This document shows, in pieces, positions 30,361 through 34,032 of a stretch of DNA of 64,000 bases (positions within the stretch are counted from its first letter, which is position 1; each line of letters opens with the position of its first letter). The stretch spans positions 1 to 64,000 of the forward strand of contig JAFMLE010000005.1 in NCBI GenBank assembly GCA_017852395.1. Direction: 5' to 3'. The notes below the pieces were generated by a model. It ran no database searches. It saw only the letters and a list, made by a program, of their open reading frames with translations, and was not told where the DNA came from. Both the position numbers and the translations under genes were made by a program. This DNA comes from Flavobacteriaceae bacterium. Lineage in GTDB: Bacteria; Bacteroidota; Bacteroidia; Flavobacteriales; Flavobacteriaceae.

Positions 30361-31566
30361 ATGAGAAATATTCATTTTAAAAAATACGGAATTCTTTTGG
30401 TGCTCATCTTGGTTTCAGCTTGCCAAAAAGAAAATCCATTGAATAAAATTATGGCCGGCGAAGACCCCAAAATCAAAGCTATCGCAGGTTCCATAGACGC
30501 CCATAATGTACAAATTCTATATACTACGGTCTCTAAGGATACCCAAGGGCGTTCGCAATTAAAATCATGGTCGTATGGTTTGGATGAAAACCGGTATTTC
30601 TATCCCGCCAGTACGGCAAAATTTCCAATTGTTTTACTCACACTTGAAAAATTAAACGCTTTGCAAAAACAAGGGGTCCCGATTACTAAAGACACGCCTT
30701 TTCATATCATCAATTCCAAAGATATGGGGTATATCGCTCAACGCGATAGCACAAAATCCGATGGCCTTTTGACCATTGGCCATCTGATTAAAAAAATATT
30801 TTTAGTCAGTGACAATGATGCTTACAACTATTTGTTTGATTTTTTGGGCACCGATTACATCAATGCCACGCTGCAAGAAAAAGGGTTTAACAACACCCAA
30901 ATACATCATAAATTTTTGTTTGGTGCAGACAATCAGTCCACCTGGGAATATGTTTTTTTTGATGATAAAGACACCTTGTATCATCAAGCTACAATTTTGG
31001 CCAAAAACGAACTAAAAAATCAGGGCCTCAAAGGACTTTTGGCTGGAGTAGGGTACCTAGAAAAAGGCAGTTTGGTAGAAAAACCAATGGATTTTTCTCA
31101 AAAAAACAGCATCTCTATTCGAGACCTTGAAGGCATGGTGCAACGCGTCATCTTACCGGAAATGTTTCCAACCCATGCGCGCTTTGATCTTGCCAACGAG
31201 GATTATGAATTTGTTCGGTACTGGATGAGTCGCAATACGCTGGAAAGTACTGATCCCGAATACCGGACACAAGATGGGTATTTTGACAGTTATGTTAAGT
31301 TTTTGATTTTTGGAGATGTCCCCGGACAAATGGATGGAAAGGTCCGTATCTATAACAAAGTAGGTGAAGCTTATGGCACCCTTACCGATACGGCCTATAT
31401 TGTTAGTGAAGCGGAGGATATTGCATTTTTTCTAACAGCGACTGTTTTTGTAAATGAAAATCAAGTCTTCAATGACGACCAATACGAATACGAAACCCTA
31501 GGGTTCCCGTTTTTAGGCGCGTTGGGCCGTGCGGTATTGGCGTTGGAGCGAAGCCAAAAAAACTAG
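30361..31566 (+). CDS. Serine hydrolase (class A beta-lactamase-like), lipoprotein
   Basis: LLVLILVSACQKE lipobox; PASTAKFPIVLLTLEKL (SxxK); VSDNDAYNYLFD (SDN-like). Confidence 0.8.
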   Translation: MRNIHFKKYGILLVLILVSACQKENPLNKIMAGEDPKIKAIAGSIDAHNVQILYTTVSKDTQGRSQLKSWSYGLDENRYFYPASTAKFPIVLLTLEKLNALQKQGVPITKDTPFHIINSKDMGYIAQRDSTKSDGLLTIGHLIKKIFLVSDNDAYNYLFDFLGTDYINATLQEKGFNNTQIHHKFLFGADNQSTWEYVFFDDKDTLYHQATILAKNELKNQGLKGLLAGVGYLEKGSLVEKPMDFSQKNSISIRDLEGMVQRVILPEMFPTHARFDLANEDYEFVRYWMSRNTLESTDPEYRTQDGYFDSYVKFLIFGDVPGQMDGKVRIYNKVGEAYGTLTDTAYIVSEAEDIAFFLTATVFVNENQVFNDDQYEYETLGFPFLGALGRAVLALERSQKN

Positions 31567-32516
31567 TCTTTTTTCTTGAGTCCCAATTCGATCAACCGCT
31601 CTTCCAGATAAGCACCTGCAGTTGTGTCTTCAAATCCTTTAGGGTGGTCTTTATCAACGCAATTAGAGAGGCAATTGAGCGGCATTTCGGAGATGGGATG
31701 CATAAAAAACGGGATTGAAAACCGTGAATTTCCCCACTCTTCTCTTGGGGGGTTAACCACCCGGTGGATGGTCGACTTAAGTTTGTTGTTGGTCAATCGA
31801 GAGAGCATGTCCCCCACATTGATCATCAATTCATCAGGGGCAGCCAAGGCATCAATCCACTCGTTTTGCTTGTTGAGGACTTGTAGCCCTGCGCCTTGTG
31901 CTCCCATCAATAGGGTAATAAGATTTATGTCTCCATGAGCTGCTGCTCGAACGGCATCTTTTGGCTCGACGGTAATGGGCGGATAGTGAATGGGTCTAAG
32001 GATGGAGTTGCCATTTTTGATGTACGGGTTAAAATAATCGGTGGGCAACTGAAGAAAGTCGGCAAGAGCCTCTAAAACATAAGCTGCCGTGGCTTCGAGT
32101 TGCTGGTAGGTTTCTTTACCAATGGCATTAAATTCGGGGAGTTCTTCAACCCACACATTTTTGGGATAAGCGGCTTCGAGCGCTGGGTTGTTGACCACAT
32201 ATTGCCCAAAATGCCAAAACTCTTTGAGGTCGGCTATTGTTCTACCTTTTGCCGTTTCTTTTCCAAAAGAAGTATAGCCTCTTTGTCCGCCAATGCCCGG
32301 GATTTCGTACTTCTTTTTTGTTTCATAGGGCAAGTCAAAGAACGCTTTGATTTGCTTGTAAAGGTTTTCTTGTAGACTTGTAGACAACAAATGGCCTTTG
32401 AGCGCTACAAAACCGATCTCAGTAAACGCTTTTCCTAAGTCTGCAACAAATTGTTTTTTGGCTGCTGCATCGCCATTTATATATTGATTGAGGTCTACTT
32501 TTGGAATCCGATTCAT
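31563..32516 (-). CDS. Isopenicillin N synthase family 2OG-Fe(II) oxygenase
   Basis: MNRIPKVDLNQY..; AHGDINLITLLMGAQGAGLQV; STIHRVVNPPREEWGNSRFSIPFF; supplied start 32573 lies inside a terminator. Confidence 0.9.
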   Translation of the reverse strand: MNRIPKVDLNQYINGDAAAKKQFVADLGKAFTEIGFVALKGHLLSTSLQENLYKQIKAFFDLPYETKKKYEIPGIGGQRGYTSFGKETAKGRTIADLKEFWHFGQYVVNNPALEAAYPKNVWVEELPEFNAIGKETYQQLEATAAYVLEALADFLQLPTDYFNPYIKNGNSILRPIHYPPITVEPKDAVRAAAHGDINLITLLMGAQGAGLQVLNKQNEWIDALAAPDELMINVGDMLSRLTNNKLKSTIHRVVNPPREEWGNSRFSIPFFMHPISEMPLNCLSNCVDKDHPKGFEDTTAGAYLEERLIELGLKKKD

Positions 32517-32550: not shown

Positions 32551-32583
32551 AAAAAAAAGAAAAGCAGGCCCATCGACCTGCTT
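32551..32583 (-). terminator. Intrinsic terminator upstream of 2OG oxygenase
   Basis: Minus strand AAGCAGGTCGATGGGCCTGCTTTTCTTTTTTTT: 7-bp stem plus U tract. Confidence 0.8.
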
Positions 32584-32603
32584 CTTAAGTAGATAAGGAA
32601 TGT

Positions 32604-32669
32604 TTAAAACAGCTGGCCAAAAGGCGTCTGCTGTCTTGAGGTATTCCTTAAATGTTGATCATAAGACAT
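32604..32669 (-). CDS. 21-aa small ORF with extended Shine-Dalgarno
   Basis: MSYDQHLRNTSRQQTPFGQLF; AGAAAGGAGGTG-N4-ATG. Confidence 0.5.
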   Translation of the reverse strand: MSYDQHLRNTSRQQTPFGQLF

Positions 32670-32673
32670 AAGA

Positions 32674-32685
32674 CACCTCCTTTCT
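32674..32685 (-). promoter_or_regulatory. Extended Shine-Dalgarno complementary to Bacteroidota 16S 3' tail
   Basis: Minus AGAAAGGAGGTG is the exact reverse complement of CACCTCCTTTCT. Confidence 0.75.
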
Positions 32686-32693
32686 ACATTTAA

Positions 32694-32729
32694 TTAGACA
32701 TTGCTGTTGTCACAGCACGAACAGGTCAT
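32694..32729 (-). CDS. 11-aa Cys-rich leader-type ORF
   Basis: ATG ACC TGT TCG TGC TGT GAC AAC AGC AAT GTC TAA = MTCSCCDNSNV. Confidence 0.45.
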   Translation of the reverse strand: MTCSCCDNSNV

Positions 32730-32763
32730 CTCAAATTTAGGGATAGTTTATAATAAAAAAGTC

Positions 32764-34032
32764 CTATTTGACAATTTTTTTTAAGGTCAATCCTTGAACC
32801 AATATTGTAAATAAGACAACCATATAGGTAAGGATCAATATAAGTTCTTTGCCTGATCCAATTTGATCGGGCAAGTTGAGTGCAAGGGCGATGCTCAAAC
32901 CTCCACGGAGACCTCCCCAAGTGATAATCAATGCGGTATTTTTTTCAAATTCTTTTTTTATTGATAAGGATTTGATCGGTATAAGTACCCCAATCCAACG
33001 AGCGAGTACTACATTAATGATGGTTAATATGGAAATCATCAGATAGGAAAGGGAAAAATTTTGAAGTATGGGTATAATCTCCAATCCAATTAAGATAAAA
33101 AGAATGGCATTTAGTGTTTCGTCTAACAGGTGCCAAAATTTATATACATAGTCCCCCATTGCTCGCTGTAAGCCTATTTTATCTTTATCTGTATCAATAT
33201 TTTGGTTTAAAAATAAACCCATCACCACCACCCCTAAAGGGCCCGAAAAGTGAAGATAACTGGCCAATATCGAAATAATTAATACCAAAGAAAGTGTGAT
33301 CAGCACTTCGAGCTCAATGTGTTGGTTTTCGATATATTTTACCAATTTTAGCCCCAAATATCCGATCAACAATCCCAAGGCCACTCCTCCGACTACTTCG
33401 GTAAGAAATAACGTTCCAACGCTTTGAGCGGTTATGTTTTCGATGCCTTCTACCTTAACATTGAGCAAGGTTAAAAACAAAACAACACCGATGCCGTCGT
33501 TGAAGAGCGACTCTCCAGCAATACGTGTTTCGGTCACCGATGAAAGATTCATTTTTTTGACCATTGCCAATACTGCAATTGGATCTGTAGGGGCAATTAG
33601 TGCACCAAAAAGCAAGCAATCTACATAGGTTAGCCCCAAATGATTGAGATTAAGAAACGGCTGGCTAATGAACCAATACGTAGCTGACCCTACCATAAAA
33701 GTAGAAAACACCACTCCAAAACTGGCCAATAACAACACGGTTACTTTATCTTTAAGAAGTTCATGGACATTGACACTTATGGCTCCAGCAAACAACAAAA
33801 AAGGCAGCATAACATCGATCAACAATACACTAAAATCAAATTGGGCCGTCAATGTCGTCACCATCGACAAAAACTGGGGCCATATCAACCCCAAAACCAT
33901 GACGGTCAGCGATAAGACTATGGCCAAAACCATCAAACCTATCGTTTGTGGCAGCTTAAGAACACGGAGATTTACAATCGAAAATATAGACGCCAGCAGC
34001 AATAAAAAGGTGGTCAACTCAAGAAGACTCAT
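32764..34032 (-). CDS. Na+(cation)/H+ antiporter, NhaP/CPA1-like
   Basis: ALIAPTDPIAVLAMVKK, GESLFNDGIGVVLFL, WGGLRGGLSIALAL. Confidence 0.93.
   Translation of the reverse strand: MSLLELTTFLLLLASIFSIVNLRVLKLPQTIGLMVLAIVLSLTVMVLGLIWPQFLSMVTTLTAQFDFSVLLIDVMLPFLLFAGAISVNVHELLKDKVTVLLLASFGVVFSTFMVGSATYWFISQPFLNLNHLGLTYVDCLLFGALIAPTDPIAVLAMVKKMNLSSVTETRIAGESLFNDGIGVVLFLTLLNVKVEGIENITAQSVGTLFLTEVVGGVALGLLIGYLGLKLVKYIENQHIELEVLITLSLVLIISILASYLHFSGPLGVVVMGLFLNQNIDTDKDKIGLQRAMGDYVYKFWHLLDETLNAILFILIGLEIIPILQNFSLSYLMISILTIINVVLARWIGVLIPIKSLSIKKEFEKNTALIITWGGLRGGLSIALALNLPDQIGSGKELILILTYMVVLFTILVQGLTLKKIVK

Follow-up and report, generated by a model that had tools for sequence, protein, structure and literature searches.

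A predicted free-standing small RNA gene of Flavobacteriales with an extended Shine-Dalgarno sequence and a short open reading frame

The window analyzed here, a stretch of 64,000 nucleotides from a Flavobacteriaceae genome (contig JAFMLE010000005.1), carries on its minus strand a compact element between an antiporter gene and an oxygenase gene. The motifs listed in the original prediction, namely a -7-like box, an 11-codon open reading frame (ORF), a Shine-Dalgarno sequence (SD), a 21-codon ORF, competing inverted repeats, an intrinsic terminator and the oxygenase ATG, are all found on the minus strand where it had placed them. The features of the locus are as follows.

32764 to 34032, minus strand: upstream gene, CPA1-type Na+/H+ antiporter (PF00999), a frequent, non-obligatory neighbour
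32732 to 32739, minus strand: -7 promoter element TAAATTTG (flavobacterial consensus TAnnTTTG)
32551 to 32727, minus strand: predicted transcript of about 175 nt, with a putative start a few nt after the -7 box and its end at the terminator T run, promoter and terminator both being conserved
32694 to 32729, minus strand: Cys-rich 11-codon ORF MTCSCCDNSNV, outside the conserved element
32703 to 32716, minus strand: hairpin H1, GCUGUGACAACAGC, with invariant GACAAC at 32711-32706
32673 to 32686, minus strand: extended SD UAGAAAGGAGGUGU, able to pair over 14 nt with the 16S rRNA 3' tail (GGAACACCUCCUUUCUA of relatives)
32672 to 32675, minus strand: UGUC just 3' of the SD, a possible pseudoknot partner of GACA in the H1 loop
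32604 to 32669, minus strand: 21-codon ORF, MSYDQHLRNTSRQQTPFGQLF and stop, conserved in frame and length
32643 to 32649, minus strand: ORF arm AAGGAAU (codons 7-9), pairing with tail AUUCCUU and covarying with it
32606 to 32637, minus strand: hairpin H3, variable, within the latter half of the ORF; present in predicted homologue structures and differing in sequence among lineages
32590 to 32601, minus strand: tail AUUCCUUAUCUA, with two alternative pairing partners, the ORF arm and the SD (UAGAAAGGA)
32551 to 32585, minus strand: intrinsic terminator, loop CGATGG at 32575-32570
31563 to 32516, minus strand: downstream gene, DIOX_N / 2OG-FeII_Oxy oxygenase with its ATG at 32516, an incidental neighbour

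Read 5' to 3', the layout consists of the -7 box, the hairpin, the SD, AUG, the ORF, its stop codon, the tail, the terminator and a T run. The parts that stay constant among homologues are the -7 box, the GACAAC-loop hairpin, the SD, an ORF of 19-21 codons, the tail and a covarying terminator with an invariant CGATGG loop, while the neighbours vary. On the strength of this conservation, the element appears to be a small RNA gene in its own right, about 175 nt long, and not an oxygenase leader, with its own flavobacterial -7 box and intrinsic terminator bounding a predicted transcription unit. The -7 box is retained in 62 of 63 copies (exact in 43, a near-match in 19) and is absent from one, the decayed copy of genome G298; the distance from the end of the box to GACAAC is 18-22 nt, mostly 20-21, across copies. 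Three homologues fold more stably than shuffled sequence (z of -3.3, -4.1 and -4.3), which is more than expected by chance.

Upstream of the element, the usual neighbour is the CPA1 antiporter gene, and most copies lie about 40-90 nt 3' of its stop codon; in seven copies this place is taken by riboflavin synthase (ribE), and eight copies have a divergent gene there. In genome G006, the same antiporter (76% identity) is not followed by the element. The oxygenase follows in 24 tallied loci, and elsewhere a glycosyltransferase, other families or, at 15 loci, convergent genes are found, so that no same-strand downstream gene is conserved of the kind that an attenuator would control. In one clade, named MSIEKN, both neighbours lie on the opposite strand in all eight copies. 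These eight copies, together with the fixed register of the promoter box, support a stand-alone regulatory RNA, which was one of the options originally offered. A possible separate -7 box for the oxygenase, TATCTTTG (32545-32538, minus strand), lies inside the 34-nt gap between the terminator and the ATG.

A DNA search among 60 relatives gave two strong homologues, and a covariance model built from three sequences matched 16 of 400 family genomes (9 of 237 genera), with one copy each and 13 of the 16 matches at E 6.5e-15 or better. When 84,980 genomes were scanned for the exact pattern, 65 loci were found, one of which was judged a chance match (L083, labelled Phycisphaeraceae), as the rest of the element is missing there and its genome gave no model match. 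This leaves 64 further copies in named genomes, plus several found by the covariance model; all of these come from records of Flavobacteriales or Bacteroidetes, many being metagenome-assembled genomes (MAGs). Many of the exact-pattern loci carry names that, as read from the records, we take to be those of marine isolates. A 61-sequence model applied to samples of the order and the phylum yielded weak terminator-like matches only, and those in other families and phyla were rejected for want of the SD and the GACAAC hairpin; the model searches ran with Infernal's stricter filters and may miss diverged copies. Within the samples searched, the element thus appears limited to some small-genome lineages of Flavobacteriales. 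Carriage by phages was also considered and dropped, as no exact-pattern match occurred in the viral collection. Two copies (L089 and L098), both beside ribE, occur in one MAG (ERR315863_bin.92), probably as a result of strain mixture. In the decayed copy of G298 (L026), the -7 box, H1 stem, SD, tail and terminator loop are all altered, and the rpsU gene of this genome retains its SD; the RNA therefore seems dispensable in G298. The window has no match at the gathering thresholds of Rfam 15, in agreement with the initial impression that no known family shows this layout, and a literature search found no description of this RNA, the search with the SD string giving unrelated papers only.

In Flavobacteriales, the anti-SD of the ribosome is hidden by bS21, bS18 and bS6 (McNutt et al., PMC9976891), and bS21-lacking ribosomes translate messages with an extended SD, the rpsU mRNA in F. 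johnsoniae (PMC9976891); SD-dependent control in this order has apparently been limited to rpsU (PMC9976891). Judged by pairing to 16S rRNA, the RNA described here is a predicted second extended-SD unit beside rpsU, and stronger than rpsU. The published screen (PMC9976891) presumably missed the ORF because it is short and unannotated. The extended SD claimed earlier is indeed present, although its length is not 12 nt but 14 nt against the 16S tail of relatives, from which the tail was taken as the host genome yielded no 16S 3' end; the tails of four element-bearing genomes read GGAACACCUCCUUUCUAGAG. The predicted SD:16S pairing energy is -23.2 kcal/mol here and -20.2 kcal/mol for rpsU of the same genome, and it ranges from -17.6 to -23.4 kcal/mol (median -23.2) in 64 copies, within the energy range of extended-SD messages, which pair at less than -13 kcal/mol just before the start codon. 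Among 16 AAAGGAGGTG sites in the genome, only those of rpsU and the element lie outside a coding frame and are followed by an ATG at SD distance. Furthermore, the element retains its SD in genomes whose rpsU lacks a strong one (pairing no stronger than -4.5 kcal/mol), namely G091, G107/G316, G1018, G1020, G1021, G1024 and G1025.

In two copies (L069 and L099), GAGAGGAGG replaces GAAAGGAGG; in this lineage (G107, G316) rpsU lacks an SD, and a 16S 3' end was looked for in the genomes and not found. Residue 54 of bS21 is His in three SD-less rpsU copies, L121 (G091), L110 (G107) and L125 (G316), and the other SD-less rpsU genes retain Tyr at this position. The change of Tyr54 to Ala in bS21 raises SD use in F. 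johnsoniae (PMC9976891).

In 61 of 62 copies, the ORF that follows the SD is 19-21 codons long; each of the three stop codons is found among the copies, and alignment gaps within the ORF span whole codons. The sole copy with an altered stop (L041, TAA to CAA) extends to 25 codons. Its dN/dS is approximately 0.46, a rough figure from close, non-independent pairs. This pattern indicates that translation would matter and that the constraint on the peptide may be loose. Of 63 copies, only 11 have an in-frame ATG for the Cys-rich ORF that had been counted as part of the element. In the window, this codon is 2 nt from the end of the -7 box and does not lie beyond the likely transcription start; a cysteine attenuator was accordingly rejected, as the upstream ORF is not conserved. 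The original interpretation is supported in part, and the Cys-rich ORF does not belong to the conserved unit.

Within the predicted RNA structure, the H1 stem is preserved in 90% of cells and GACAAC in all 61 aligned copies. A pseudoknot between the GACA loop and UGUC is a hypothesis that cannot draw on covariation, since both sides are essentially invariant in 61 sequences; the C of UGUC never changes even though it is unpaired with 16S rRNA. For the pairing of the ORF arm with the tail, 31 two-sided changes were counted against a mean of 13.5 in whole-arm shuffles (0 of 1000 as high), on anchored blocks whose per-clade anchors bias the count toward the helix. RNAalifold on the full alignment missed this helix because of alignment shifts. 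The tail resembles the 16S 3' end, and its alternative pairing with the SD is preserved in 92% of cells and hardly varies; as the SD is fixed, the lack of covariation in this pairing is uninformative either way. In partition functions, both tail pairings carry ensemble weight in most copies. The terminator helix shows many two-sided compensations and strong covariation around its invariant CGATGG loop, which was absent from other terminators in the scanned loci, few of which were found by the simple scan used. In the predicted structures of three homologues, the terminator lies outside both alternative folds and forms independently of the tail pairing. The analysis supports the stand-alone layout, the conserved promoter box, the SD, the frame and length of the ORF, and the covarying ORF:tail helix and terminator.

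The RNA probably has a regulatory role and senses a particular kind of ribosome. The best reading, to which we give an even chance, is a bistable stand-alone RNA whose ORF is engaged mainly by bS21-lacking ribosomes; we infer the engagement, the switching and the output from the features above. The extended SD would start the short ORF mainly on ribosomes with a free 16S 3' tail, that is, on those that lack bS21. In one state, the tail UCCUUAUCUA would pair with ORF codons 7-9 and leave the SD open, and in the other state, the tail would pair with the SD and close it. A ribosome translating the ORF could melt the ORF arm:tail helix, and one at the stop codon would cover the tail, so that occupancy by SD-competent ribosomes would set the state of the RNA. 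The output is likely to be regulatory, by holding bS21-free 30S subunits and/or by exposing the GACAAC and CGATGG loops to partners; ribosome buffering, a trans-acting RNA and a peptide are the candidates. This reading draws support from the fixed spacing of the promoter box, the antisense neighbours and the lack of a conserved downstream gene, from an SD that is stronger than that of rpsU and kept where rpsU has lost its own, and from the covariation of the ORF arm:tail helix and the terminator, the two competing folds and the single copy per genome in the covariance-model searches. Against it, the peptide constraint would fit a functional peptide too, the SD:tail pairing shows no covariation, the SD being fixed, the copy of G298 has decayed, and the antiporter of G006 stands without the element.

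Among the other explanations, an ordinary small-protein gene, with a peptide of about 20 residues as its product and with the RNA structure and strong SD serving just to tune expression, possibly in response to bS21, would account for the strictly preserved frame and length, the dN/dS below 1 and recurring peptide motifs such as QQIPxS and VPFVHLF; we consider it somewhat unlikely, as the peptides differ strongly among clades (MSYESNLRKLGQQIPSSTLF, MSIEKNSKELVGLLVPFVHLF, MSNTKYLSWNGLNDAFLVI), have no Pfam or NCBIfam match and are less well conserved than the terminator and GACAAC loops. The invariance of these apical loops within otherwise variable stems, and the specificity of CGATGG to this terminator among those scanned, would instead fit a classical base-pairing trans-acting small RNA with GACAAC and CGATGG as seeds and translation of the ORF as a secondary matter. 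That explanation seems improbable, for it leaves the invariant extended SD and the frame and length of the ORF unexplained. Both the small-peptide and the base-pairing rivals are compatible with gating by the SD.

The remaining two explanations tie the element to a neighbouring gene and are excluded as general explanations, since the neighbourhoods disagree. That the element is the antiporter gene's 3' UTR or terminator, for which the position of most copies shortly after the antiporter stop codon and the lack of another terminator between them in the window could be cited, is very improbable in view of its own conserved promoter box and of the copies located after ribE or next to a divergent gene; a pure 3' UTR is contradicted by those copies. 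Least credible is the translation-dependent attenuator of the 2OG-Fe(II) oxygenase that had been suggested: the oxygenase follows the element in the window and at 24 tallied loci, but the gene after the terminator changes among lineages and is unrelated or convergent elsewhere, the Cys-rich ORF is not conserved, and the alternative helices do not overlap the terminator. The link to the oxygenase is thus incidental.

The bistable, ribosome-engaged RNA preferred here shares features with several known systems. Dual-function bacterial small RNAs, of which SgrS/SgrT is an example, are stand-alone structured transcripts with an intrinsic terminator and a short ORF, as the element is predicted to be, and sequence conservation suggests that the element has the promoter and terminator expected of this class; it differs in its unusual SD and in an ORF that is part of the switch helix, and its invariant loops are only candidate seeds for pairing with targets. 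Leader-peptide attenuators of the trp/his type have a short ORF overlapping mutually exclusive helices, as does the element, which in contrast has no regulated downstream gene and has its terminator outside the switch. The best sub-threshold Rfam matches, BjrC1505 and L20_leader (24.9 and 21.1 bits against gathering thresholds of 50 and 58.7), resemble the element in a terminator-like 3' end and do not make it a member of either family. Rfp18 of Flavobacterium psychrophilum, which is conserved in the genus Flavobacterium and has metalloprotease mRNAs as targets (PMC9723704), is also a conserved structured small RNA of Flavobacteriaceae and is set apart by its description. The closest parallel in SD use, the rpsU (bS21) mRNA of Bacteroidia, which is autoregulated by bS21-lacking ribosomes (PMC9976891), shares with the element an extended SD, which forms 9-14 bp with the 3' tail of 16S rRNA, in bacteria that generally avoid SDs; the element, however, does not encode bS21, has an ORF of about 20 codons and an elaborately folded RNA, and its SD persists where that of rpsU is lost.

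A bolder and rather doubtful proposal is that the element is a dedicated RNA sensor of bS21-lacking ribosomes, whose folding and activity are set by the presence of SD-competent ribosomes and which in several marine lineages may have replaced or outlived SD-based autoregulation of rpsU. In Flavobacteriales, the anti-SD is perfect but hidden, and a second conserved extended-SD transcript, kept where rpsU has lost its SD, suggests a broader regulatory channel, for which the element would provide a compact reporter with which the hidden anti-SD channel could be tested.
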